In this document: one piece after another, positions 5,351-30,624 of the stretch | Position numbering within the stretch: the stretch's first letter is position 1 | How the letters are laid out: each line of letters begins with the position of its first letter | From: an uncultured Nitratireductor sp. | GTDB lineage: Bacteria > Pseudomonadota > Alphaproteobacteria > Rhizobiales > Rhizobiaceae | DNA: 64,000 nt | Assembly (NCBI RefSeq): GCF_913053745.1 | Contig: NZ_CAJXGF010000001.1 | Location: 58,881 to 122,880 of the forward strand | Direction of reading: 5' to 3' | Program-made: the position numbers and the translations under genes | Notes under the pieces: generated by a model | Told to the model about the DNA's origin: nothing | The model's input: the letters and a program-made list of their open reading frames with translations, nothing else | The model's database searches: none

Positions 5351-5780
5351 CTCTGAATTCCAGGGCCAGAAGGCGGCCAAGCGCTACTTGTTCGATGCAC
5401 GCGATTGGTTGACCGCCACCGGTTTCGGGATGCAGGTGTCTGCACGTCTGGACAATACCGAACCTGCCAGGCAAACAACCTCTTTCGCTCGGATTGATCG
5501 AGCAGATCGGCGGCTTGTATCCACGGGGCTTCCAACCGGCCCGATCGTCGGCAAACGCACGGCTGTGCGCCTCAGCACCGGTTAAAGTGCGCCGAAATCG
5601 GGAATAAAATCCCGTTGCGATAAAAGTCTCACCAGCCACCTTCCATTTTTCTCTTGTGGGAATTCCACGGCCATTCTTCTCCTTACATTCGAACGCCTTC
5701 GTTTTTCGCGAGCCGTTTCCGCGATTTGGCTATTCCCCGACAGGCAGCGATGGCACGCGCCATCCAAATCACGGGCACAA
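5351..5780. other. Stretch without recognisable gene
   Basis: Short ORFs on both strands show no recognisable motif or family resemblance and overlap one another in several frames. I see no intact gene here. It lies between the oxidase operon and a recombinase fossil, so decayed mobile DNA is likely, but I cannot align anything specific. Confidence 0.4.
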
Positions 5781-17072: not shown

Positions 17073-17999
17073 CTAAAGCCGAGACCGCACCAGCCACGCA
17101 ATGGCCAGATCTGCGGTTGCATGTCCCTGAAACACGAAAAGAGCCCTTTGGGCTTCCGATTCCCGGCCCGCGTGAACACCGCCAGCCAATTCCGACAGAT
17201 CGCAGTCGATTCCAATGCCCGGTTTCATATCGATACCGTGATGGAGACGACTGTCGGTCGCCACACAGTCAACGGCCGCAAATCCCTCCGAATGCCAGGA
17301 CCGTCCTATATCCACCGCTGCAACGAAAGCCCCCGGCGCAAGGTGGGAAGCGTCCAGAAATGGCTCGAAATCCGCGCTCGCGGGGACCGAGGTAACAACG
17401 ATGTCACTCTCCCGCAAGAGCTGTGCAGGATCGGGGTAGACCCTGCCTTCCAAGCCCAGCGTTTCTGCAGAATCCGCCAGACGCCGGGCAGATTGCTCCG
17501 ATCGGCTGTTGCAAAGTGCCACAGTCAGACTTGGAAAGAGATCGCACATCGCTTCCAAATGCATGCGCGCTTGTAGTCCGCAGCCGATGAAGCCAATCGT
17601 CCTGCTGTCTTTGCGGGCGAGAAACCACGCCGCCAGCGCAGACATGCCTGCCGTACGCAACCCCGTCATGGCGTTGGCCTCCATGACGGCAAGTGGAACG
17701 CCGGAATTGAAGTCGTTCAGCACGGCCAGCGCATGAATACCGGGCGAAGCATCCCCTGCAATACGGGGCGCGACACCAAGCCATTTCACGACAGCCAGCC
17801 CCAGTTCCTCGCAGGCCGCGCACATGGCCTGGAACTTGCGCCCCGGGGCGATGTCGAGAGACATCTTCGGCTGAACATGGACACGCCCTGCATGCTGGAG
17901 ACGATAGGCGTGCAAGAGGGCATTGCGAGCATCGCTCGGGGTCAGGCCGAGTCTGCGAATCTCTCCTTCATCGATGAAGACCGGCTCAACGTCGGTCAT
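17073..17999 (-). CDS. Ornithine cyclodeaminase/mu-crystallin family protein
   Basis: 308 residues from the ATG at 17999, which overlaps the upstream stop (ATGA). NAD motif IGFIGCGLQARMHLEAM at about residues 135-150; the substrate region has HVQPKMSLDI and KWLGVAP as in OCD/alanine-dehydrogenase-like proteins, and GLRTAGMSALAA. Members convert ornithine to proline or reduce imino acids with NAD(P)H. In octopine-type operons OCD follows opine oxidase, which the gene content here resembles. It is the last gene of the eight-gene minus-strand operon. The actual substrate may differ from ornithine. Confidence 0.85.
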   Translation of the reverse strand: MTDVEPVFIDEGEIRRLGLTPSDARNALLHAYRLQHAGRVHVQPKMSLDIAPGRKFQAMCAACEELGLAVVKWLGVAPRIAGDASPGIHALAVLNDFNSGVPLAVMEANAMTGLRTAGMSALAAWFLARKDSRTIGFIGCGLQARMHLEAMCDLFPSLTVALCNSRSEQSARRLADSAETLGLEGRVYPDPAQLLRESDIVVTSVPASADFEPFLDASHLAPGAFVAAVDIGRSWHSEGFAAVDCVATDSRLHHGIDMKPGIGIDCDLSELAGGVHAGRESEAQRALFVFQGHATADLAIAWLVRSRL

Positions 18000-19264
18000 C
18001 GGAAACGCTCCGCCCAGTAAGGTTTCGAATCGATGAGAGAATGCCTCCCCCCGCAAAGATCAGCGATAAGCCTGCCTGTCGCCGGCGCCATGGTGATGCC
18101 GCTGTGACCGTGTCCGAAACCGTAGATCACATCCGGTGAAAGCCGCGACGGACCGATGCAGGGAATACCGTCGGGTGTCGAGGGGCGATGCCCCATCCAT
18201 CGATCGACCACGCCCTCCTCGAATTGCCTCGAAAATTCGGGAAATGCCCGTTGCAGATGCTTCACTAGGATGTCTGCGCGTCGCCAGTCCGGCGCTGCCT
18301 CGCGGCCGGCAAGTTCCACCTGACCGGCAACGCGCAGACCCGCGCGCGTCCTTGTGAAAACCATCTTACCGTCCATCAACATGATTGGATGACGCGGGCC
18401 GCCCGCGGCTTCCGGCACCACCACATGGTAACCCCGCTCCGTTTCGAGCGGCACCCGATCGCCGCATTGCATCGTCAAGTCCCGCGCGTCTATGCCCGCT
18501 GTAAGGACCGCCCTGTTGGAACAGATCTCGCCGCTTTCGGTCTTCACCGCGCGCAACCGGTTTCCCTCGAGCCTGAAGCCGGTTGCACGCGCCCTTTGCA
18601 GAACGGCGCCCTGCCGAACGGCACCTTCGACCAGACCGGTGACGAATGCGCCAGGATCGGTAAGATTCGCGCCGGCACGAACATAAACGCCGAACCGGTG
18701 GTGCGCGCCCAATCCGGGCTCGAAGGCGCGCAGCGCCTCGTCTTCCAACTCTCGCCATTCGATGCCGTAATGCCGGCGCAAACGCCAGGCGAGGCCATCG
18801 GCCTCGAAGGCCTCCCGATCAGAATAAAGGAAGAGATGCCCATCGTGCTTGAGAAGGGAAACGAGGCCGTTTGCTTTCGCGACCGACCGGTAGCGCTGTA
18901 ACGCCCCGTGCGTCAGCGCGTGGCGGAAACTGGCCGTCCGTTCGACCTTCCCGACACTTGAACCGGCCAGAAGGAACCGAGTGAGCCATGGCGTCAGCGC
19001 AAAAAGATGAGACCGGCGAATGGCGAACGGACCAAGGGGATCCATGAGATAACCCGGCACTTGCCGCCACAAGCCCGGCACCGAAACCGGCAAAAGGGAA
19101 CTCTCCATGATCCATGCGCCATTGCCATAACTGGCGGCCTGCTTTCCACCTGGCTGGTCGACATCGAGAACGATCACATCGTGTCCGCTCTGAACCAGTT
19201 CCCATGCAGCAAAGGCGCCGACTATGCCAGCACCGATGACGACCACCTTCAACGCATCGCTCAC
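17996..19264 (-). CDS. DadA-like D-amino-acid dehydrogenase (FAD, DAO family)
   Basis: 422 residues from a GTG at 19264 that has GGGAGGA 5 nt before it; the tracked start at 19294 would overlap the upstream gene and lacks this site. FAD motif VVIGAGIVGAFAAWELVQSGHD at the N-terminus, acidic end VIVLDVD, then the DadA-like SYGNGAWI stretch and the C-terminal GFGHGHSGITMAPATGRLIADL. DadA-type enzymes oxidise D-amino acids (or related N-substituted ones) to keto or imino acids at the membrane. It is ATGA-coupled to the OCD-like gene, which may act on its product. Confidence 0.87.
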   Translation of the reverse strand: MSDALKVVVIGAGIVGAFAAWELVQSGHDVIVLDVDQPGGKQAASYGNGAWIMESSLLPVSVPGLWRQVPGYLMDPLGPFAIRRSHLFALTPWLTRFLLAGSSVGKVERTASFRHALTHGALQRYRSVAKANGLVSLLKHDGHLFLYSDREAFEADGLAWRLRRHYGIEWRELEDEALRAFEPGLGAHHRFGVYVRAGANLTDPGAFVTGLVEGAVRQGAVLQRARATGFRLEGNRLRAVKTESGEICSNRAVLTAGIDARDLTMQCGDRVPLETERGYHVVVPEAAGGPRHPIMLMDGKMVFTRTRAGLRVAGQVELAGREAAPDWRRADILVKHLQRAFPEFSRQFEEGVVDRWMGHRPSTPDGIPCIGPSRLSPDVIYGFGHGHSGITMAPATGRLIADLCGGRHSLIDSKPYWAERFR

Positions 19265-19277
19265 GACATCCTCCCGG

Positions 19278-20372
19278 TCAGGACGGCCGCACACTCAGCC
19301 TGTCGCGCAGAAGTGCCAAGTCCCGAAAGACCTCCTCCAGACGATCGACCTCGAATCCGCCGGCATGGGCGAAACCGACCCGTTCGAAGGCAGCCTTCAG
19401 CCGGCCCGTGAAATGGGCACGCTGCCCGTCCAGAACCATGCCGTTCTTCGCCTCGAACGCATGGTTCCACGAAATGGCCTCTTTCCGCGTGAGACCTTCA
19501 GGAAGGTCAAGATGCAGTTCTCCTGCCTCGAGCCGCACCGGGTACCCCCCCGGCAAACCGCCCGGTCCCGGCACATGTCCTGACCAGGGTCGGCCAGCCG
19601 CGTAAGCGCAGATCAAAGTCACACCCGAAGCCCCGGAGACTTCAATGGCCGGTTCGGGGGTCAGCTTGACCGTTGAAAACGCCTCGAACACGTCCTCAAC
19701 CTCCCGGTCATCCAGAAAGACACGCGGCGGCGTTGCCCCGTTTCTCCGCTCGCGCGTCAAGCGCCATGCGCCAAGGTTCTGGTAATGGGCAAGCACGCGC
19801 AGATGTTCCGATCCCGCCGCCCCGCGAGCGCCTGCAAAAACGTTGGAAAGGATTGCAACGTTTCCCGTGCCGCAAAGCACCTTGTGGCCCAGTGCCTGAA
19901 TCATCGCGTTCACCACGTCCGGAAAGCAGCAATTGATCAAAGCGCTCGTTGGGGAGTGTTCGCTGATCGCCTTGCCAACCCGGCTTGTCAGAAGCGCCTG
20001 GAAGATGGCGGTAGCACTCAACCCACCCTCGGCCACCAATGCTGTCCAGGCATTTCCTGAATCTGAAATCACCGAAGACGTCTGCACGGATGCCGCCTGG
20101 ACGGCGATTTTCGGCCGGGTCTTCAGGATCATCCGCTCCGCAGCACCCTCTTCAAGCAAATCCACCTCCATCGTTGAAAAGGAGGCAGGGCGAGAAAACA
20201 TCGACGCACGCGCATTGCCCGCGGTCCTCAACCAATCCAGCCTGTCGCGGTTGCGGCCGGCGATCACTACATTGATCGGCTCCTGTGCCGTCGAAGCAAT
20301 ATCCAAAGCGATGCGGCCCGCAAAGATTCCCGTTCCCGAAATCAGGACGTCAGTGTTGAATGTGTCGCTCAT
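19278..20372 (-). CDS. NAD(P)-binding dehydrogenase-like protein, saccharopine-dehydrogenase type
   Basis: 364 residues from the ATG at 20372, which overlaps the ligase stop. The N-terminus has a Rossmann glycine pattern (VLISGTGIFAGRIALDIA) followed by VVIAGRNRDRLDWL, where the Arg suggests NADP, and KTRPKIAVQAASVQTSS at the third strand, as in saccharopine-dehydrogenase NADP domains. The C-terminal half is not recognised. It sits between an acyl-CoA ligase and a DadA-like oxidase, so it probably acts on an amino-acid or opine-like intermediate. No closer assignment is possible by eye. Confidence 0.65.
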   Translation of the reverse strand: MSDTFNTDVLISGTGIFAGRIALDIASTAQEPINVVIAGRNRDRLDWLRTAGNARASMFSRPASFSTMEVDLLEEGAAERMILKTRPKIAVQAASVQTSSVISDSGNAWTALVAEGGLSATAIFQALLTSRVGKAISEHSPTSALINCCFPDVVNAMIQALGHKVLCGTGNVAILSNVFAGARGAAGSEHLRVLAHYQNLGAWRLTRERRNGATPPRVFLDDREVEDVFEAFSTVKLTPEPAIEVSGASGVTLICAYAAGRPWSGHVPGPGGLPGGYPVRLEAGELHLDLPEGLTRKEAISWNHAFEAKNGMVLDGQRAHFTGRLKAAFERVGFAHAGGFEVDRLEEVFRDLALLRDRLSVRPS

Positions 20373-21883
20373 CACGCACGCTCCGTCGCGGCCATCCGGT
20401 CCCAGCAATCATGGGTGGAGTTTGACAGTCTGTGCTTCATGATGCGCTGGCTGGGGGTGCGCTCGAACATCTTCACGAAAGCGATGTACCGCGGCACCTG
20501 AAACCCAGCCAGCCGTTGCTCCAACCAAGCGCCGAGGGCATCCGCATCCGCTGTCGCGCCCGGCTTGAGCTGCACAAACAGCTTGATGTCCTGTTCTCCT
20601 ACATCGGTCGCCACGCCGATCATGGCGCTGTCTTCCACGTCGGGATGTTGCCCGGCGACATGCTCGACCTCCCACGACGAGACGTTTTCACCCCGGCAAC
20701 GCACACTGTCGGATTTCCTGCCATGAAAGAAAAGGTTTCCGTCGTCGTCCCAGGAACCGATATCGCCGGTGCGAAACCCCTCTGGGCAAAGCGCTTTCGC
20801 CGTTGCCTCGGGATTGCGGAAATAGCCGGGAAAGATGGCGCCGGGAACGGACGTCGTGATGACGATCTCCCCACGTTCGTCGAGACTTTCCCGGCCGTCA
20901 TCGTCAAGCAGGCGCACGCTGAACCAAGGCATGGGCTTTCCGACAGAACCGACAAGGCCGGTATCGTTGTAAGTCGTCAGACTCGATGCCTCGGTCATGC
21001 CATAGCATTCCCTGACGTGAATGCCGAACCTCTGTTCGAACGCCCGCCAAACTTCCGTGGCGCATCCCCCTCCCCAGGCGATCCGCACATTGTGGCCTCT
21101 GTCGAGCGGCGATGGCGGTTGCTTGAGCAGAATCTGGATGACACCCCCGAGATGATGAATATGCGTGGAACCCGCAGCGCTGACATCCTGCCAGAAACGG
21201 CTTGCGCTGAAGCGGTTTCCCAGAGTGAGGGTAACGTCGCGAACCAGGGGCAGGAACAAGGTCTGCGCTCCTCCGATATGGTAGAAGGGCTCCCATACGT
21301 AATAGTCATCGCCAGCCCGTGGCGCAGAACACAAGGCGACTGCCTCTGCAGCGAGACGCAGCATGCGATGGGTCACGATCACGCCCTTCGCCGGACCCGT
21401 CGTCCCAGAGGTGTACATGATGGCCGCTGCATCGTCGGGCTGAGGGAGAGCCTCGTCGAACGTCGCGTCGCCGCTGGGCAGGTTCCGCTCGCGATTGATC
21501 AGAAGAGGCACGCCGCGTGCCGCACTGCAACCCGCGATTGGCTCGGCAAACTCCTCGTCTGCAACGATCAGGGATGGATCACTGTGACCAAGGATGTATT
21601 CCAGCCCTTCCCCCTTGAGGGCAACGTTGACCGGAACCCAGACATTGCCAGCGCGGGTGATTGCATAGATTGTCGCCATCGCGAACGGGCTGTTGCGCAT
21701 GGCAACCGCGATGCGGTCGCCGCGCTTGATACCCTTTTCGCGGATCGCCGTCGCCAGTTGAGCCGAAGCCCGTTCGAGATCGGCGAACGAGACCCCGATA
21801 CCCTCGTGCCGGGCGAATATCCTCTCCGGGCTGTCAGCCGCGTGCCGGCAAAGCAGGTCGATGAAACCTTCTGACATTTGCAT
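20372..21883 (-). CDS. AMP-dependent acyl-CoA synthetase/ligase, CaiC-like
   Basis: About 503 residues; ATG at 21883 or 21877 (both fit a weak AAGG site). The frame further upstream is a shadow of the permease. Ligase motifs are complete: phosphate loop MYTSGTTGPAKGV, RECYGMTEAS (A5), RTGDIGSWDDDGNLFFHGRKSD (A7/A8) and a C-terminal Lys region TPSQRIMKHRL. This enzyme activates a carboxylic acid to its CoA thioester via an acyl-adenylate. The closest group by feel is crotonobetaine/carnitine-CoA ligase CaiC, and an enoyl-CoA hydratase heads the same operon. The acid substrate is unknown. Confidence 0.87.
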   Translation of the reverse strand: MQMSEGFIDLLCRHAADSPERIFARHEGIGVSFADLERASAQLATAIREKGIKRGDRIAVAMRNSPFAMATIYAITRAGNVWVPVNVALKGEGLEYILGHSDPSLIVADEEFAEPIAGCSAARGVPLLINRERNLPSGDATFDEALPQPDDAAAIMYTSGTTGPAKGVIVTHRMLRLAAEAVALCSAPRAGDDYYVWEPFYHIGGAQTLFLPLVRDVTLTLGNRFSASRFWQDVSAAGSTHIHHLGGVIQILLKQPPSPLDRGHNVRIAWGGGCATEVWRAFEQRFGIHVRECYGMTEASSLTTYNDTGLVGSVGKPMPWFSVRLLDDDGRESLDERGEIVITTSVPGAIFPGYFRNPEATAKALCPEGFRTGDIGSWDDDGNLFFHGRKSDSVRCRGENVSSWEVEHVAGQHPDVEDSAMIGVATDVGEQDIKLFVQLKPGATADADALGAWLEQRLAGFQVPRYIAFVKMFERTPSQRIMKHRLSNSTHDCWDRMAATERA

Positions 21884-21945
21884 TCTCTTACCTTGGATAT
21901 TTTGAATAACCTCTTCCCCACTGTCCTGAAGCAACCGCCCGCGCC

Positions 21946-23685
21946 TCAACGGCGCAAACGGTCGGCAACGAGCAGGATCGCCGTGACGATGACAAGCACC
22001 ACCACGGAGACGGCAGCCAGGGTCGGATTGAGTTGCAGGATCATGTCGTCCCACATCTGCTTGGGAAGGGTGGATTTCAGCCCGCCGCTCACGAAGATGG
22101 CGATTGTTAGTTCGTCGAAGGACGTGACGAAGGCGAACAGGAATGCCGAAATGACCCCGCCGCGGATCAGAGGTACGGTAATCAGGCGCAGAACCTGGAA
22201 CCGCCCCGCGCCAAGCGATGCGGCCGCCTGATCGAGACGCCAATCATACCCTTTGAGCACCGCGGCGATCGCAACGAAAGTGAAGGGAATGGAGAGAACC
22301 GTGTGGCCGATCACGAGCCCCAGATTGGTCGCCACCAGCCCCATCTGCGCGAACAGGTAAAACAATCCGACTGCAATCACGATGCGCGGCACGATCATCG
22401 GCGCCAGCATGAAGGCGAACACCACCCCACCGAAGCGGGAACGCGAACGGGCAATGGCAAGGGCGGCCAATCCACCGATAGCTGTCGCCGCGATGGCGGT
22501 CGCGAAGGCGACCCCAAACGAGCGAACCGTCGCGGAAATCCATATCGGCGAATTGAAATAAAGGCTGAACCAGCGCGTGCTGTATCCCGGCGGCGGAAAC
22601 TCCAGGAAATCCGAGCTTGTAAAGGCGATGGGGATCACCATCAGCGTCGGCGCCACCAGGAAAAAAACGATCAGCGCGACATAGCCCGGCAGGATCTTCC
22701 CGCGGCCTCCTTGGGAAAACCGACCGGTTACCGCCGACGTAATCCACGCAAGCTTCTCAAGAAGGGCAAAGCCAAAACGACGTGTCCAGGCGGACGACGT
22801 TTTATCGGCCGTGCTGCTTCCCGCTGATAGCGATGCCAGGCCGAAAAGGTGATTATAGATCCAGCACGCGATGAGGGCCGACACCAGCAGCATGGTCGCG
22901 AGAACTCCGGCGAACGCCCAGTTCACCAATTCCTGCACCTGAATGATGATGAGCTGCGCGAGCATGGTCTGCTGTCGTCCCCCCAAAAAGGCCGGGACGA
23001 TAAAGAAGCCGAGCGATGTGATGAACGTAAGCAGGCCGCCTGCAGCCATTCCGGGAATGGACAGCGGAAAATAGACCATCCAGAAACGATGGGCACCATT
23101 GGCCCCCAGCGTGCCGGCCGCCTGGGACAACCGCGTATCTATTCCGCTCATCACGGGCATCATCGTGAGAACCGCGAGCGGCATCATCGCATGCACCATG
23201 CCGACGATCACTCCGAACTCATTGTACATGAGCGGCAGCGGACTGTCGGTGATCCCTGCACCGCCCAGAAGCCGGTTCAACACGCCCTGATTGCCAAGCA
23301 GCAGCATCCAGGCGAAAGCCTTGACCAGATAGCTCGTCCAGAACGGGACCAACACCAAAAGCAGCATCTGATTTCGTCGTTGCTCTTTGAGCTGGGAGAG
23401 CCAATAGGCAAGCGGATAACCGAGCAGCAGCGAAAAAAAGGCGGTCAAACCCGCGATCCGGAACGTGATTATGAGGATGCGCCAATATACCTCCGTATGG
23501 AGAAGGCGATCATAATGCTCGGCCGTCAGGCTGCCGGTATCTCCCTGAATGCTCAGGAAAAGAAGCCGACCCACGGGAATGAGGAAAAAAACGACCAGGA
23601 ACGCAATCGCTGGCGCGGCAAGCCACAATGCGTTGGCGCGCAGGCGAAAGGTTCGTGGCGAGGCGGAAAGGCCGGCCGCAGTCAT
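21946..23685 (-). CDS. ABC transporter permease, two PotB/PotC-type halves fused
   Basis: 579 residues, twice the usual length. Residues about 20-285 are PotB-like (AIAFLVVFFLIPVGRLLFLS; EAA-like loop near LSQAAGTLGANGAHRFWMVYFPL). Residues about 325-570 are PotC-like (FLEFPPPGYSTRWFSLYF; loop DQAAASLGAGRFQVLRLITVP). Both halves carry their own ATPase-docking loop, so a single chain replaces the usual heterodimer. About 12 helices are expected. It is ATGA-coupled to the ATPase upstream. Contrast the separate permeases at 1-1009. Fused permeases of this type are known in this transporter family but are less common. Confidence 0.88.
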   Translation of the reverse strand: MTAAGLSASPRTFRLRANALWLAAPAIAFLVVFFLIPVGRLLFLSIQGDTGSLTAEHYDRLLHTEVYWRILIITFRIAGLTAFFSLLLGYPLAYWLSQLKEQRRNQMLLLVLVPFWTSYLVKAFAWMLLLGNQGVLNRLLGGAGITDSPLPLMYNEFGVIVGMVHAMMPLAVLTMMPVMSGIDTRLSQAAGTLGANGAHRFWMVYFPLSIPGMAAGGLLTFITSLGFFIVPAFLGGRQQTMLAQLIIIQVQELVNWAFAGVLATMLLVSALIACWIYNHLFGLASLSAGSSTADKTSSAWTRRFGFALLEKLAWITSAVTGRFSQGGRGKILPGYVALIVFFLVAPTLMVIPIAFTSSDFLEFPPPGYSTRWFSLYFNSPIWISATVRSFGVAFATAIAATAIGGLAALAIARSRSRFGGVVFAFMLAPMIVPRIVIAVGLFYLFAQMGLVATNLGLVIGHTVLSIPFTFVAIAAVLKGYDWRLDQAAASLGAGRFQVLRLITVPLIRGGVISAFLFAFVTSFDELTIAIFVSGGLKSTLPKQMWDDMILQLNPTLAAVSVVVLVIVTAILLVADRLRR

Positions 23686-24770
23686 GAAACCACCACCGCA
23701 ACATCGATGGGCCAGTGATAGGTGAGAGAATCGCCAAGCGCTGGCAGCGTGGTCGCCGGGTCATGACGCACCGATACTGTTTCTCCGTCCTGCAAGGTCA
23801 ACACCAGACGAGTGTCCGACCCCACATAGATGATTTCGGTAACCGTTCCGGTGATGTCGTTTTCCCCGGCCCCCGCGGGACCCGGGCGCAATTGCTCTGG
23901 CCGCAGAACCAGCCCTGCCTTGCCGTTGACGAGCGGGCCGCAATTTTCTTGCCTCGCTTCAAAACTGCCATTGGAATTGGCCACGACAATGCGGCCGTCG
24001 CCTGCATCGGAAACCTTGCCGATGAAAAGGTTCGAAAGCCCGATGAAGCGAGCCGAAAAAATGCTCTTGGGCCGCGAATAGATTTCGCGCGGCGTGCCGA
24101 TCTGCTCGACACGTGCATGGTTCATAAGGCAGATCCGATCCGAAAGAACCAGCGCCTCCTCCTGATCGTGGGTCACATAGATAACGGTGGTTCCGAATTC
24201 CCGATGCAGCCGCTTGATTTCGAATTGCATGTGCTCGCGAAGGTTTTTATCGAGCGCGCCCAACGGCTCATCCATAAGGACGATCTGAGGGCGGTAAACA
24301 AAGCAGCGCGCAAGCGCCACGCGTTGCTGCTGACCGCCGGAAAGCTCGCGCGGAAAACGGTCGCCATACTGTTCGAGCTGCACCTTGGCCAAGGTTTCGC
24401 GAACGCGTTCGCGGACTTCGTTCGTCGGTGCGCCGCGCATTTTCAGCGGGAAAGCGATGTTCTCGCCAACCGTCATATGGGGAAAGAGAGCGTAGTGCTG
24501 GAACACCAGCCCCATGTCGCGCCGGTGCACAGGCGTCGCCGTCTCGTCGCGGCCGTCCACATGCAGCGTTCCCGTGGTCGGTTCTGTCAAACCCGAAATC
24601 ATCTGTAGCAGTGTCGTCTTGCCCGAGCCGGAGGGGCCAAGCAGCGTCACGAATTCTCCCGCGTTCACGGTCAACTCGGTCGGCTCCAGAGCGACCACTT
24701 CGCCATAGCGCTTCCCAAGCCCGCTTATCTTCAGCTTCGGCAACGCGTTCTTAGAGTCCACATGCACCAT
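23682..24770 (-). CDS. ABC transporter ATP-binding protein, PotA-like
   Basis: 362 residues. Walker A GPSGSGKTT (about 46-54), signature LSGGQQQRVALAR, Walker B IVLMDEPLGALD, H-loop VTHDQEEAL, then a C-terminal TOBE domain (residues about 280-355). This is the energy-coupling subunit of the polyamine/iron-type importer with the fused permease and the Tat-exported binding protein of this operon. The start at 24770 lies 97 nt after the binding-protein gene, a gap that holds two hairpins. Confidence 0.92.
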   Translation of the reverse strand: MVHVDSKNALPKLKISGLGKRYGEVVALEPTELTVNAGEFVTLLGPSGSGKTTLLQMISGLTEPTTGTLHVDGRDETATPVHRRDMGLVFQHYALFPHMTVGENIAFPLKMRGAPTNEVRERVRETLAKVQLEQYGDRFPRELSGGQQQRVALARCFVYRPQIVLMDEPLGALDKNLREHMQFEIKRLHREFGTTVIYVTHDQEEALVLSDRICLMNHARVEQIGTPREIYSRPKSIFSARFIGLSNLFIGKVSDAGDGRIVVANSNGSFEARQENCGPLVNGKAGLVLRPEQLRPGPAGAGENDITGTVTEIIYVGSDTRLVLTLQDGETVSVRHDPATTLPALGDSLTYHWPIDVAVVVS

Positions 24771-24867: not shown

Positions 24868-25929
24868 CTAGATCAGAAGCCAGGCGTTGAAACGCTCGGT
24901 AACGTCTGCGCGGTTCTCGCTCCACCAGTCTTCGCTCGCCAGCCGCATCTGCGAGATGTTGGCCGGCGCAGTCGGTAAGACCTTGGCGCGTTCCGCATCG
25001 ATGCTGTCATAGGCTTTCTGATTGGTCGGCCCATAGGCAAGCTCGCTTGTGTAGAGCGCCTGTTGTTCCGGTCGCGTGCAGAATTTGACAAACTCGCGCG
25101 CGGCATCAGCCTTCGGGTTTCCCTTGGGAATGCCCCAGCCCTCGACCGAATACAGTCCCTGATTCCAGACAAGTTCGGCAGGAGCACCACCATCAATGGC
25201 CGCCTGAAGACGCGCATTCCAGCCGGAAATCATGTCAACCTCGCCGCTCTGGAGCAGCTGGGTGGATTGTGCGCCGCCAGTCCACCAGACATCAATATGC
25301 GGTTTGATCTTGTCGAGACTGGCGAAAGCCCGATCGAGATCGAGCGGATACAGATCGTCCAGCGGCACACCGTCGGCCAGAAGCGCTTGTTCCAGCGTAT
25401 CGATAGGATTTTTACGCAGGGCGCGGCGGCCCGGGAACGCTTCGACATTCCAGAAATCCGTCCAGGACTTTGGTGCGTTCTCCTTGAGCTTGTCCGTGCG
25501 GTAGGCGAAGATCGTCGAATAGACATCCGTGCCGACGAAATTGGTGAACAGCGCTTCTTTCATCATGCCTGGAGCATCCGCCGCTTCCACGCCAGTCGGC
25601 TCGAGCAGATCCTGCTCCTCCAATATCATCCGTGCCGAAAGGGTAAGAGTGCACACATCCCAGATGAAGGTTCCCGTCTCGACGATCGACTTGAACTGCG
25701 CAGTGGGCTCCGCCTCCCGCGCCACATTGGCAATCGTCATTCCGGTTTCTTTCTCGAAAGGGGCGTAAAACGCCTTGCGGAAAGCCGGGCTGAACGGTCC
25801 GCCGGGATCGGCCACGGTAAGAGTCGTCGAACCGTAAGCCGGGCGCAGGATCGCCGGTGCAGCCAGTGCCGCGCCTGCTCCCAAAAGCACGGTACGGCGA
25901 GTCAAAGAGATGTTGTTTTGCTTTGTCAT
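24868..25929 (-). CDS. ABC transporter substrate-binding protein, PotD-like, Tat-exported
   Basis: 353 residues. The N-terminus SLTRRTVLLGAGAALAAPAIL is a twin-arginine signal, so it is exported folded to the periplasm. The mature part begins TLTVADPGGPFSPAFRKAFYAPFEKETGM, the start of bacterial extracellular solute-binding proteins of the spermidine/putrescine group, and contains DVCTLTLSARMILEEQDLLEP and WWTGGAQSTQLLQSGEVDMISGWNAR, typical of it. It delivers the substrate to the fused permease. The ligand may be a polyamine-like, opine-like or small carboxylate compound. Confidence 0.9.
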   Translation of the reverse strand: MTKQNNISLTRRTVLLGAGAALAAPAILRPAYGSTTLTVADPGGPFSPAFRKAFYAPFEKETGMTIANVAREAEPTAQFKSIVETGTFIWDVCTLTLSARMILEEQDLLEPTGVEAADAPGMMKEALFTNFVGTDVYSTIFAYRTDKLKENAPKSWTDFWNVEAFPGRRALRKNPIDTLEQALLADGVPLDDLYPLDLDRAFASLDKIKPHIDVWWTGGAQSTQLLQSGEVDMISGWNARLQAAIDGGAPAELVWNQGLYSVEGWGIPKGNPKADAAREFVKFCTRPEQQALYTSELAYGPTNQKAYDSIDAERAKVLPTAPANISQMRLASEDWWSENRADVTERFNAWLLI

Positions 25930-25959: not shown

Positions 25960-26730
25960 TTACGCGCTTTTGGCCCTGCGCTTCGCGAGAAAAGCCTCCA
26001 TCATGCGGGCCGGCTCTCCTGTCGCGTAGGCTTCACGCTGAATGCGAATGCCCGCGCTGAGCGCATCCTGCAGGCTCGCTTCCGTCATCTCGCGGAAACG
26101 CTGACGATCGAGCCGCATCGCGACAGGTGGCTTCGATGCCAGTTCCACCGCAAGCTTCATGGCTTCTTCGGCCACCTTGTCCTGCGGAACCAGCCGATTG
26201 ATGAGACCGATCCTTTCGGCTTCGTCCGCGTCCATCAGGCGGCCGGTAAGCGTCAGGTCGATCGTGCGCGCCATACCCAGCATTTCCCGCATGATCCACG
26301 GGCCGGTCGTGCTGGGAATTCCGGAGTTGATCTCCGGCTGTCCCATGCGCACACCGGCGTGTCCTATTCGCAGATCGCAGAGCAGGGCGACCTGAAACGC
26401 CGACCCCGCCGCAACGCCATTCAACGCAGCGATGATCGGTTTCGAAAGCCTGCGGAAGCGGTCATAAAGTTTTTCCCACTCGCCGATCCAGACCTCGGCA
26501 CGGTCCGCATCGAACGACTTTGTCTCGTTCAAGTCCTGTCCGGCACCAAAAGCGCGATCCCCCGCGCCAGTCAGGATGACGGCCCGGACCGCGTCATTGT
26601 CTTCGGCCTCCGCCAGGGCGTCCATCAGCTCTTCTCGCATGGTCGCGTTCCAGGCGTTCATCACCTGCGGTCGGTTCAGCGTGATCTTGAAGACGGAACC
26701 TTCGACCTCAGTGAGGATGAATTCACGCAT
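25960..26730 (-). CDS. Enoyl-CoA hydratase/isomerase family protein
   Basis: 256 residues, the normal crotonase length. Oxyanion-hole regions are seen at GAGDRAFGAGQDLNE and PIIAALNGVAAGSAFQVALLCDLRIG; MGQPEI holds one catalytic-type Glu, while the usual PGAGG turn is changed to SGIPSTTGPW, which may shift the reaction. It is the first gene of the eight-gene operon, 30 nt before the binding protein, and pairs with the acyl-CoA ligase in the same operon. An AT-rich palindrome lies just before the start and is proposed as the IclR site. Confidence 0.87.
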   Translation of the reverse strand: MREFILTEVEGSVFKITLNRPQVMNAWNATMREELMDALAEAEDNDAVRAVILTGAGDRAFGAGQDLNETKSFDADRAEVWIGEWEKLYDRFRRLSKPIIAALNGVAAGSAFQVALLCDLRIGHAGVRMGQPEINSGIPSTTGPWIMREMLGMARTIDLTLTGRLMDADEAERIGLINRLVPQDKVAEEAMKLAVELASKPPVAMRLDRQRFREMTEASLQDALSAGIRIQREAYATGEPARMMEAFLAKRRAKSA

Positions 26731-26753
26731 TTGCCACTCCAGCTATTTCTATG

Positions 26754-26768
26754 CAATAATTATTATTG
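26754..26768. promoter_or_regulatory. Candidate IclR operator before the minus-strand operon
   Basis: CAATAAT-T-ATTATTG is a perfect 7-bp inverted repeat, 24 nt before the hydratase start codon in the divergent region with iclR. Its complement plus one flanking base, CAATAATAATTATTGC, differs in one base from a site at 27725 before the second operon. Confidence 0.6.
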
Positions 26769-26897
26769 TATTTTGAACGTAACGTTTTCATTATGTCAAG
26801 CTCGCTTCCCGTTTTTTGCCGAATGGGCTAGAGGGCCTATCCGACATCTGCACCGCTTCCGGTCGTAATTCGACCTCTGGCAAAAGGACCCATTCCA

Positions 26898-27677
26898 GTG
26901 ACAAGCAGGGAAAAACCGTCGAAATCCGATCCGTTGATGGTGCGTTCCGTCGAGAAGGCCTTCCGCGTTCTCTCCGCATTCAATGCTGAGCGCTCAACCA
27001 TGAACCTGTCCCAGATCGCGGCGGAGACCGATCTGGACATGAGCGCAGCGCAACGCTTCACACACACGCTCGTGAAACTGGGATACCTCAACAAGAGCCC
27101 GGCCACACGGCAGTTCGAACTCAGCGTGAGGACGCTCGATCTTGGCTATCACTTCACGCGCGCCAACCGCCTTATGGAAAGAGCGCTGCCCTATCTGCAG
27201 CACCTGAGCAAGGAAACCGAGGAAACGGTCAATCTGACCATTCCGGATGACACTGAGGTGGTTTTCGTCTCACGTTTCCTCAGCCGACACGTGCTCAATA
27301 CCGATGTCATTTTGGGAACGAGGCTTCCCGCCTATTGCACAGCACCAGGGCTTGCCATCCTGTCACGGCTGCCCGCGAGTGAAGCGACAGCCATCATCGA
27401 GGCTTCGGATCTACGCCCGTTCACGCCGCACACCGTCTGGGACAAGACTGAGATTGAGGCGCGGGTCGCCGAGGCCAGCCAATCCGGCTTTGCTGTCGCG
27501 TGCGAGGAGATCTACCACGGCGACGGCTCCGTTGCCGCAGCCATTCTCGATACGGTCGGTCGCCCGATTGCGGCAATCAACATCGCGACTTCGCTGGCGC
27601 GCTACACCCACTCCGAACTCGTCGAGCGGTTCGCTCCACTTGTCGTTGCCGCTGCAAGGTCAATCTCCAAACTCTGA
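26898..27677 (+). CDS. IclR family transcriptional regulator
   Basis: 259 residues from a GTG at 26898; an ATG at 26937 (MVRSVEKAF) is an alternative and neither has a strong ribosome site. N-terminal winged helix: SVEKAFRVLSAFNAERSTMNLSQIAAETDLDMSAAQRFTHTLVKLGYL. C-terminal IclR effector domain: ERALPYLQHLSKETEETVNLTIPDDTEVVFVSR, PAYCTAPGLAILSRL, and GFAVACEEIYHGDGSVAAAILD. It lies between two catabolic operons and has matching palindromes on each side, so it probably controls both. Confidence 0.9.
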   Translation: MTSREKPSKSDPLMVRSVEKAFRVLSAFNAERSTMNLSQIAAETDLDMSAAQRFTHTLVKLGYLNKSPATRQFELSVRTLDLGYHFTRANRLMERALPYLQHLSKETEETVNLTIPDDTEVVFVSRFLSRHVLNTDVILGTRLPAYCTAPGLAILSRLPASEATAIIEASDLRPFTPHTVWDKTEIEARVAEASQSGFAVACEEIYHGDGSVAAAILDTVGRPIAAINIATSLARYTHSELVERFAPLVVAAARSISKL

Positions 27678-27724
27678 ACGCAGCCTGTTGACAATTCATC
27701 GATTGGATTCAATCATTTTCATAA

Positions 27725-27739
27725 CGATAATAATTATTG
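27725..27739. promoter_or_regulatory. Candidate IclR operator before the plus-strand oxidase operon
   Basis: CGATAATAATTATTG, 13 nt before the ATG of the 2Fe-2S gene, matches the hydratase-side palindrome in 14 of 15 positions (one changed base spoils the outer arm). The spacing just before the start fits repression by blocking RNA polymerase. Confidence 0.55.
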
Positions 27740-27752
27740 CTATTCAATAGAT

Positions 27753-28100
27753 ATGTCTTCCAGCGATCGAGCAAGCGCCAGTGAAGCCCAATTTGTAGCG
27801 GTGGGGCGTCGTATCGGTACACCCTTACGGTTTCGCATCGACGGGCACGTCATATCGGCCAATGCGGGAGAAAGCGTACTTTCCGCCGTGCTCCAGAACC
27901 GTCATGTGTTGCGGTACTCGGAATTTACCGAAGAGCCGCGTGCGGGATTCTGCCTGATGCGAGCCTGTCAGGATTGCTGGGTTTGGAGCGTCGAGGGAAA
28001 GCGCATTCGAGCGTGTTCGACACCGGCTTCCCCTGAGTTGGATCTCTTGACATCGCCTCCCGCGCGGCTGACGGGAAACAGACCTTGCGCCAAATCCTGA
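27753..28100 (+). CDS. 2Fe-2S ferredoxin-like subunit, HcnA-like
   Basis: 115 residues. Cysteine pattern C-x4-C-x2-C then C 12 residues on (GFCLMRACQDCWV...IRACSTP) for a plant-type [2Fe-2S] cluster, with the beta-grasp start FRIDGHVISANAGESVLSAVLQN. It is the small electron-transfer subunit of an HcnABC-like dehydrogenase whose two flavin subunits follow directly. The end overlaps the next gene's TTG start by 16 nt. It is the second such subunit in the window. Confidence 0.87.
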   Translation: MSSSDRASASEAQFVAVGRRIGTPLRFRIDGHVISANAGESVLSAVLQNRHVLRYSEFTEEPRAGFCLMRACQDCWVWSVEGKRIRACSTPASPELDLLTSPPARLTGNRPCAKS

Positions 28101-29452
28101 TCATAGGCGCAGGTCCGGCCGGAATGAGTGCCGCCGTCGCACTGGCGGAGGCGGGCGTTCGCCCCACCGTCATCGATGAGAACAGTCTCGCAGGCGGACA
28201 GGGTTTTCGGCAAACCAACGCTGACATCGAACTCGACACCCGTGCAATCTACGGGCACGAGTACAATAAACACCAGAACCTTCATTCCAGGTTTCGTGGA
28301 TGCCTCGACAAGATCGACTATCGTCCATCGACACTTGTCTGGGCCATTCATGGCGGCAAGGCGCATACACTCAATGCGGAAGGCTTCTCCGAAATTGCCT
28401 TTGATGGTCTTATCCTGGCCCCCGGCGCCACAGACCGGCTGATGCCCCTGCCCGGCTGGACGCTTCCCGGCGTTTTCTCGCTCGGCGCCGCCCAGGTCGC
28501 GCTTAAGGACCAGGGCTGTTTCATTGGTCGCCGGATCGTATTCGCCGGCAGTTCGCCGCTGCTCCTGCTGGCCGCCCTGCAATATCACAAGCTTGGCGCA
28601 CGACAGCTTTGCGTGCTCGATACGACCCCGCTGCGTCAAAAACTCCGTGCCGCGCCAGGCCTTCTTCAATCCAGTCGAACTTTCGTGCAGGGTCTCTCTT
28701 ATCTATGGTCGCTGAAAAAGCGCGGTGTGCCTGTCCATAGCGGTGTCAAACTGCAAGGAATTGAAGGGCAAGGCCGGGTGGCTGCGATACGATATGCTGA
28801 TGCATGGGGCAGGAAGCATCGTATCGCTTGCGACGCCGTTGCGCTCGGATATGGGCTGCGTGCCGAAACCCAGCTGCCGGAACTTGCAGGGGCGGAATTC
28901 CAGTTCGACCACGGCCTTCGCCAATGGCTGCCGAAGATCGACACAAGCGGGCGCGCCGGAGACTGCCTTTACATAGCCGGCGACGGCGCGGCGACTGGCG
29001 GCGCAGACGCCGCCATCGCCAGCGGCATGCTTGCCGCCACGGGATTGCTGGGCGATCTCGGCATGTCGCAGATCGGCAAGGATAGAAGGGACCTGCAACG
29101 GCAGGTCTGCAAATTGCGCAGGTTTCAGCATCATCTCGCAAAGGCTTTCCGCTGGCCCCATGAAACAGCACAGACCCTGCCCGACCATACAATCGTCTGT
29201 CGTTGCGAGAACGTAACGGCAGGTGACATACGCGCGGCAGCGAAGCAGGCGCTCGGCCCCATCGAGCTGAACCGCATGAAGGCCATCACCCGCTGCGGCA
29301 TGGGCCGCTGTCAGGGACGCTTCTGCAGCGCGGCGCTTGCCGAAATAACCGCCGCGGCATGTGGAAAACCTATCGATGCAGTCGGCCGACTGCGCGCTCA
29401 GGCGCCCGTCAAGCCAGTGCCATTGTCCACGTCGGAAACCACCGCCCGATGA
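28085..29452 (+). CDS. FAD/NAD(P)-binding oxidoreductase with C-terminal BFD-type 2Fe-2S domain, HcnB/OoxA-like
   Basis: 455 residues from a TTG at 28085. FAD motif LIIGAGPAGMSAAVALAEAG, core PGWTLPGVFSLGAAQVALKDQG, FAD-closing YIAGDGAATGGADAAIASG, and the C-terminal [2Fe-2S] domain with CRCENVTAGDI and CGMGRCQGRFCSAA. It is the same protein type as 2392-3777 but clearly diverged. It passes electrons from the DAO subunit downstream, to which it is ATGA-coupled. Confidence 0.88.
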   Translation: MRQILIIGAGPAGMSAAVALAEAGVRPTVIDENSLAGGQGFRQTNADIELDTRAIYGHEYNKHQNLHSRFRGCLDKIDYRPSTLVWAIHGGKAHTLNAEGFSEIAFDGLILAPGATDRLMPLPGWTLPGVFSLGAAQVALKDQGCFIGRRIVFAGSSPLLLLAALQYHKLGARQLCVLDTTPLRQKLRAAPGLLQSSRTFVQGLSYLWSLKKRGVPVHSGVKLQGIEGQGRVAAIRYADAWGRKHRIACDAVALGYGLRAETQLPELAGAEFQFDHGLRQWLPKIDTSGRAGDCLYIAGDGAATGGADAAIASGMLAATGLLGDLGMSQIGKDRRDLQRQVCKLRRFQHHLAKAFRWPHETAQTLPDHTIVCRCENVTAGDIRAAAKQALGPIELNRMKAITRCGMGRCQGRFCSAALAEITAAACGKPIDAVGRLRAQAPVKPVPLSTSETTAR

Positions 29453-30624
29453 CACAGGAAACGGAGACGATCATCATCGGCGGCGGTCTGATCGGCGCGT
29501 TCACTGCTTATTTTCTCGCGCGTGAGGGGCACCCGGTGACGGTGCTCGAGAAAGGCTTCGTGGGGGCACAATCCAGTGGAGCGAATTTCGGGAATCTGCG
29601 CCTTCAGGGGCGCGACCCTTATCAATATCCGCTTTCCCTGAGGGCACAGGCCATATGGGAAACATTCGAAGAAACCACCGGTGAGAGCTTCGAATACGAT
29701 CGCACCGGTCATCTCTACATCGCCAGGAACGAGCCGGAACTCGCCAAGCTGGAGCACCATGCGGAAATTGCGCGGGGACAAGGCCTGAATATCGAAATGC
29801 TGGCAACGAAAGCCTTGAAGAAGCGCTTCCCCTATCTCGCCGAGGACACGCTTGCCGCCACCTTTTGCGGCCGCGATGCAACCGCCAATCCGCGACTCGC
29901 CACGCCAGCCGTCATGCGCGTGGCACAACGGTTCGGCGCAAGAATCATCGAGCATTGCGAAACGCTTTCAACCCTCCACACCGGCTCACGTTTCGAGGTG
30001 GAAACCACAAAAGGATCGTTCGTATCGAGTTCGCTGGTCAATGCAGCAGGTGCCTGGGGCGGTGCGATCGCCGCACGTTTCGGCGAGCTGGTGCCGGTGT
30101 TTTCCGCAGGGCCGCCGCAATTCGTGACCGAGCCCTTTCCACATGTGATCCAACCCTCCATGCAAATGGTGAACGGCAGCGTCATCTTCCGTCAGATACC
30201 GAGGGGCAATGTCATTGTTGCAGGTTATCCGCGCACGGCGAGCGAAGCGGATGGCAATCACACATTCGTCCCTCCGGGCAAAACCCTTGCGGGAATGGAG
30301 GCCCTTGGAGCCGTCGTTCCTCTCCTGCGCGATGCGCACGTCATCCGCGTCTGGTCGGGCGTCGAGGGCTATTTGCCCGACATGCGCCCGATTATCGGGC
30401 CCAGCCGGAAACAAAACGGTCTTTTCCACGCCTTTGCCTGCTGCGGCCACGGGTTTCAGATCGCTCCAGGAATAGGCGCCGTGCTCAGCGAACTGATCCG
30501 AACCGGACACAGCGATACGCCAATTGAAGCTTACGATATCGAACGCTTTAGAAATCAGGTGCCCGACAACGAGAAATTCATTCGGGAGTTCGACATCCGC
30601 ACGGCAGGCCCCGCTGCCGGCTGA
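29449..30624 (+). CDS. FAD-dependent oxidoreductase, DAO family, HcnC-like subunit
   Basis: 391 residues from the ATG at 29449 that overlaps the previous stop; the longer tracked frame is shadow. FAD motif IIIGGGLIGAFTAYFLAREGH near residue 8, ALEKG-type acidic end (VLEKGFVG), GANFGNLRLQGRD after it, and the C-terminal RVWSGVEGYLPDMRPIIGP and FACCGHGFQIAPGIG. It is the catalytic C-N oxidising subunit of the second HcnABC-like complex. The operon ends here; no RidA gene follows, unlike the first cluster. Confidence 0.88.
   Translation: MTQETETIIIGGGLIGAFTAYFLAREGHPVTVLEKGFVGAQSSGANFGNLRLQGRDPYQYPLSLRAQAIWETFEETTGESFEYDRTGHLYIARNEPELAKLEHHAEIARGQGLNIEMLATKALKKRFPYLAEDTLAATFCGRDATANPRLATPAVMRVAQRFGARIIEHCETLSTLHTGSRFEVETTKGSFVSSSLVNAAGAWGGAIAARFGELVPVFSAGPPQFVTEPFPHVIQPSMQMVNGSVIFRQIPRGNVIVAGYPRTASEADGNHTFVPPGKTLAGMEALGAVVPLLRDAHVIRVWSGVEGYLPDMRPIIGPSRKQNGLFHAFACCGHGFQIAPGIGAVLSELIRTGHSDTPIEAYDIERFRNQVPDNEKFIREFDIRTAGPAAG

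Follow-up and report, generated by a model that had tools for sequence, protein, structure and literature searches.

A predicted three-box operator on both sides of an IclR-family regulator gene between two divergent catabolic operons

Three-box sites of IclR-family regulators and the present locus

Binding sites made of three boxes have been predicted for 32 orthologous groups of IclR-family regulators, comprising 199 regulators, by Suvorova and Gelfand (2021, PMC8222616), whose survey spans 181 orthologous groups, and three boxes of alternating direction are also known from PcaU, PobR and HmgR (PMC8222616). PcaU of Acinetobacter recognises a palindrome together with an external third half-site that is needed for binding (cited in PMC8222616). 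PheR of Sphingobium, an IclR-family repressor, protects positions -21 to +23 and is freed from its site by the substrate (PMC13273656).

The locus described here lies in a window of 64 kb, the whole stretch of DNA that was analysed, and has an iclR gene between a hydratase operon and an HcnABC-like operon. The genes and the two predicted operators are as follows.

17073..18056, minus strand: ornithine cyclodeaminase/mu-crystallin family protein (Pfam OCD_Mu_crystall)
17996..19294, minus strand: DadA-like FAD amino-acid dehydrogenase (NCBIfam)
19278..20372, minus strand: uncharacterised 364-aa protein with a dehydrogenase-like Rossmann fold (structure model)
20372..22243, minus strand: acyl-CoA ligase (AMP-binding), listed start TTG (Pfam AMP-binding from residue 133)
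21946..23685, minus strand: ABC permease, PotB and PotC fused (Pfam/NCBIfam)
23682..24770, minus strand: ABC ATP-binding protein, PotA-like (Pfam/NCBIfam)
24868..25929, minus strand: ABC substrate-binding protein, polyamine/opine-like (Pfam SBP_bac_8)
25960..26730, minus strand: enoyl-CoA hydratase/isomerase, first gene of operon 1 (Pfam ECH_1)
26744..26768, minus strand: predicted operator 1 (op1), CAATA-ATAAT-TATTG-CATAG-AAATA, boxes A/B/C (sequence; de novo motif in orthologues)
26898..27677, plus strand: iclR, 259-aa IclR-family regulator, the proposed binder (Pfam HTH_IclR and IclR_C)
27725..27749, plus strand: predicted operator 2 (op2), CGATA-ATAAT-TATTG-CTATT-CAATA, boxes A/B/C (sequence; op1-trained matrix)
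27753..28100, plus strand: HcnA-like 2Fe-2S subunit (Pfam Fer2_4)
28085..29452, plus strand: HcnB-like FAD/BFD subunit (Pfam Pyr_redox_2 and Fer2_BFD)
29359..30624, plus strand: HcnC-like DAO subunit (Pfam DAO)

The locus resembles the three-box class of PMC8222616 in having an IclR-family regulator linked to the sites, three alternating boxes, and a site centre that precedes the start codon by about 25-32 bp, within the published range, but the boxes here are TATYG/CRATA and there TTYCR/YGRAA. Boxes B and C (TATYGCANTGCRATA), the most constant pair, are symmetric around one base as in the group 1 sites of that survey and hold most of WTTYCRYW3RYGRAAW; boxes A and B are arranged as in its group 2 sites, but with a spacing 1-2 bp longer than the consensus and another sequence. 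The sites of PcaU and PobR share the palindrome with an external half-site and the same spacing of the TYG core around the B-C centre, whereas the PcaU site, TTTGTTCGATWATCGMACAMA, is richer in G+C, both proteins serve aromatic pathways, and the site here falls over the predicted transcription start. In this last respect the likeness is to PheR, whose footprint over the transcription start can be set beside the span of about -6 to +19 predicted for op1; its core is GCAACG, however, and one operon and no three-box register are described for it (PMC13273656). Three-box IclR sites are thus already known, and what the sequences add here is a further example with its own box sequence.

ORFs and Pfam/NCBIfam matches confirm the eleven genes, and the order, that the first-pass annotation had given from the raw sequence. 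The longest reading frame of the acyl-CoA ligase (20372-22243) shares about 300 bp with the permease gene, and orthologues are annotated at about 510 aa; translation probably begins near 21.9 kb, at a codon downstream of the listed TTG. Translation of HcnC may likewise begin slightly downstream of the listed ATG. Feruloyl-CoA synthetase is among the best single-enzyme PDB relatives of the ligase, which does not settle the substrate. The 364-aa protein has no Pfam or NCBIfam match, a PDB sequence search returned spurious antibody matches only, and it is kept beside the CoA ligase in 42 related loci (50-89% identity). Its structure model, a confident one (pLDDT 88.8), has a lactate/malate-dehydrogenase-like Rossmann part, the similarity to lactate dehydrogenases being partial, and makes it a candidate for a new dehydrogenase family.

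A scan of GTDB genomes gave 57 loci, 56 with IclR orthologues at 50-95% identity and one (L108, 23%) with only a distant relative; about 60 IclR orthologues were compared overall. The order ligase-transporter-hydratase / iclR / HcnABC is found in about 45 of the 57, in Nitratireductor, Brucella/Ochrobactrum, Bosea, Chelatococcus, Microvirga, Salipiger and others. The DadA and cyclodeaminase genes of Chelatococcus, Microvirga and others stand after HcnC and not after the ligase, such movement of genes between the two operons being expected if both form one pathway. A search of the available literature library found no paper on this gene set.

Architecture and conservation of the element

The first-pass annotation had pointed to two near-identical AT-rich palindromes, one before each operon, which it judged unlikely to match by chance.

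26754..26768, no strand: palindrome in op1, equal to box A, spacer and box B (sequence; mismatch scan)
27725..27739, no strand: second site, in op2, equal to box A, spacer and box B (sequence; mismatch scan)

Both the positions and the near-identity hold: CAATAATTATTATTG at 26754-26768 has two 7-bp arms flanking a central T, CGATAATAATTATTG stands at 27725-27739, and when each site is read toward its own operon (ACAATAATAATTATTGC for op1 on the minus strand, ACGATAATAATTATTGC for op2 on the plus strand) the two have the same orientation and 16 of 17 bases in common. A search allowing up to three mismatches finds no third match in the 64-kb window, where 0.11 matches are expected and two were reached in 1 of 100 shuffles, and AYAATAATWATTATTG with 0-1 mismatch occurs in the 4.63-Mb genome at these two places only, the next matches having two mismatches.

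De novo motif discovery was run on the stretch between hydratase and iclR in 51 orthologous loci, a set without the window and its closest relative, and gave a three-box pattern longer than the 15 bp first noticed. As the aligned sequences have it, the conserved element is a 25-bp operator-like unit, CRATA-N5-TATYG-N5-CRATA, and not a simple palindrome; its boxes A, B and C alternate in direction with a 10-bp repeat, and each of the two sites points at its own operon. Box C of op1 in the window is AAATA, one departure (A for C), op2 has none, and the end of op2 is 3 bp from the HcnA start codon. Among aligned op1 sites the boxes carry 1.4-1.6 bits per base, the spacers 0.5 and 0.9 and the flanks 0.24-0.30; among op2 sites box A is weaker (0.76), B and C being as strong as in op1. 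The palindrome is real, but it amounts to two thirds of the element (boxes A and B), its central 5 bp form a spacer that varies, and each site is followed on its 3' side by a third box. The first-pass annotation had also proposed that loss of the palindrome where both operons are kept would speak against its role; this is seen in Bosea, yet the three boxes remain there, so that the proposed sign would have misfired. Since Bosea and others lose the 15-mer and keep the three boxes, the 15-bp palindrome was rejected as the unit of conservation.

A 33-bp matrix was built from 34 op1 training sites, a set that took in neither the window nor its two closest relatives. This matrix ranked op1 and op2 first in the window, at 36.8 and 33.0 bits, the best score in 100 random 64-kb sequences being 12.9. 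In the iclR-HcnA gap, no part of its training data, the matrix found op2 at 15 bits or more in 39 of 43 loci, where shuffles expect 0.065, and in the loci fetched after training it found op1 in five of five (L159-L163) and op2 in four of four (L159, L160, L162, L163). The four loci in which the matrix scan found no op2 are L094 and L106, where HcnA lies within about 35 bp of iclR, and L085 and L097, where there is room for it. Box A of op2 is poor in Bosea, and in Azospirillum the operator is 80-110 bp before the aligned hydratase start. The search of the genome and of orthologous loci that the first-pass annotation had called for thus finds the sites kept before the hydratase operon and before HcnA across several families.

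Where gene order is rearranged, the predicted operator stays with the hydratase operon and not with iclR. About 7 kb separates iclR from the beginning of the hydratase operon in two loci of Burkholderiales (L102, L103), and there the best site immediately precedes the hydratase, the sites before the separated iclR being weak; in L099 the hydratase is downstream of iclR on the same strand, and the site is still before the hydratase.

A scan of 398 genomes of the family with the strict pattern gave 28 matches. This locus accounts for nine of them, spread over 5 genomes; in all, 19 genomes have an orthologue, and none of these 19 has a match elsewhere. Three more adjoin other IclR genes at 37-46% identity; part of the remaining 16 is background, since a reversed control pattern gave about 11. 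The genome of the window itself has two perfect matches only, and the pattern scan found no convincing further regulon member there: one-mismatch matches are C3, C16 and C232, and those with two mismatches are background-like. At the pJP4 IclR (49% identical, L157) the matrix found no three-box site.

Several sites were seen beyond the two described. More distant IclR genes in L113 (46%) and L123 (40%) have a perfect three-box site adjoining, with an acyl-CoA ligase homologue on the other side in L113. L095 has two strong operator-like sites, at 5363 (minus strand) and 5517 (plus strand), about 1.5 kb beyond HcnC and facing apart, which probably mark another divergent pair of regulon genes. 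In L040-L044, from other Rhizobiaceae with an IclR 59-60% identical, at least four alternating boxes stand in a row beside iclR with the 10-bp repeat.

The regulator and residue 48 of its recognition helix

The nearest NCBIfam model to the window IclR is that of PcaR/PcaU/PobR (TIGR02431), at 209 bits and below its cut-off of 284.75; against BhcR (NF045644) it scores 149.8 bits, below the cut-off of 350. The recognition helix reads D[MVLI]S-A-A-Q-R-F in the orthologues and T-R-A-G-A-R-R in PcaR-type paralogues, before which GTTCGCAATACGAAC stands.

Residue 48 varies together with the base flanking the boxes. With Lys or Arg there, 29 of 39 boxes are CRATAC; with a hydrophobic residue, 0 of 183. 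Suvorova and Gelfand report that Lys at their position 28 likewise prefers G/C (PMC8222616), and from the alignment their position 28 would correspond to residue 48 here. On the tree the link comes down to about four changes with two well-supported independent contrasts and is not significant when descent is allowed for. The raw count is strong, but it was not accepted as proof of contact, and the link is treated as supporting and not decisive because the tree holds only about four changes. Paralogous IclR genes of the same genus (L010-L016, L019, L020; 35-38% identical), which have Lys or Arg at residue 48, are preceded by a palindrome like GTATCGCTRWGCGATAC, in which the B-C pair stands by itself and gains a G/C.

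A wider reading may be entertained tentatively, and we think it rather unlikely as it stands: this IclR clade would read an extendable row of like half-sites spaced by the 10-bp repeat, three in the window and at least four in some relatives (L040-L044), and not a palindrome; residue 48 would set specificity, a hydrophobic residue going with CRATA[A/G] and Lys or Arg with CRATAC; and the pathway controlled would be an undescribed CoA-ester pathway for an amino-containing acid.

Promoter position, proposed regulation and alternatives

The predicted promoter elements of the two operons in the window are as follows.

26794..26799, minus strand: -35 TTGACA of the hydratase operon promoter, 31 bp before box A (promoter scan)
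26770..26775, minus strand: predicted -10 (CAAAAT), directly before box A (consensus scan)
27688..27693, plus strand: -35 TTGACA of the HcnABC operon promoter (promoter scan)
27711..27716, plus strand: predicted -10 (AATCAT), weak (consensus scan)

The op1 promoter, TTGACA-18-CAAAAT from 26799 to 26770, matches the consensus at 10 of 12 positions, and its position puts the predicted start near 26763, inside the operator. The -35 is conserved: TTGACA with at most one mismatch is found 30-32 bp before box A of op1 in 46 of 53 loci, and before box A of op2 at 31-32 bp in 24 of 38 loci and at 36-37 bp in 8, the window being one of these 8. From the end of box C to the start codon the median distance is 20 bp for the hydratase and 13 bp for HcnA. 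A promoter-like match for iclR overlaps op1.

We consider it likely that op1 and op2 are operators of the IclR encoded between them, acting as a repressor that a pathway metabolite would lift. The three half-sites, every 10 bp and alternating in direction, would all face the same side of the DNA because of the 10-bp repeat. The operator would start just after the -10 and cover the predicted transcription start, and without inducer a pair of IclR dimers (a tetramer) on the boxes would block RNA polymerase at both operons. The inducer may be a compound that the pathway takes up or makes, either a substrate or its CoA ester, and would bind the C-terminal domain of IclR and free it from the DNA, switching on uptake and breakdown together; the parts of such a pathway would be the ABC uptake system, the CoA ligase, the hydratase and the amino-acid dehydrogenases. 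Repression is favoured because the boxes follow the -10 and cover the predicted start, where a bound protein should block the polymerase, and occlusion of this kind is suggested by likeness to the PheR footprint of -21 to +23 (PMC13273656).

The main rival is that IclR is an inducer-dependent activator at the same boxes, as are PcaU, PobR and the PcaR of P. putida. The nearest NCBIfam model, its cut-off not reached, is of a subfamily that includes activators, and PcaU and PobR use three-box sites too (PMC8222616); but the boxes come after a well-conserved -35 and a predicted -10, over the predicted start and 13-20 bp before the start codon, and the near-consensus TTGACA suggests a promoter without need of an activator, which leaves activation improbable. 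It is much less probable still that the boxes serve some other transcription factor, with iclR no more than a neighbour. Many regulators do use AT-rich inverted repeats, but the motif adjoins IclR genes, including three more distant ones found by pattern alone, its geometry is that of the published IclR three-box class, and residue 48 varies with the base flanking the boxes, albeit through few independent changes. Almost no weight can be given to chance, in AT-rich promoter DNA, as the source of the matching sites: although the intergenic stretches holding them have 46-49% GC against about 60% and scores as high as 31 bits sometimes arise in random sequence of this composition, the element is conserved across families in an exact 10-bp register and the comparative tests (39 of 43 loci against 0.065 expected, and nine of nine blind sites) rule it out.

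Repression by the IclR encoded between the operons thus stays the preferred reading, and the eleven genes are best read as the one regulon that had been suggested for them, the sites being tied by comparative genomics to this IclR clade as well as to the two operons. What began as a hunch about raw sequence is now a precise, testable predicted operator for an IclR clade and its conserved gene set. Knowing the box sequences exactly, together with the position of the promoter and the prediction for a single residue, would allow a cheap test of how IclR proteins beyond PcaU use three half-sites. The predicted regulon also brings together a CoA ligase, a hydratase, a transporter, amino-acid oxidases and an uncharacterised dehydrogenase-like protein.
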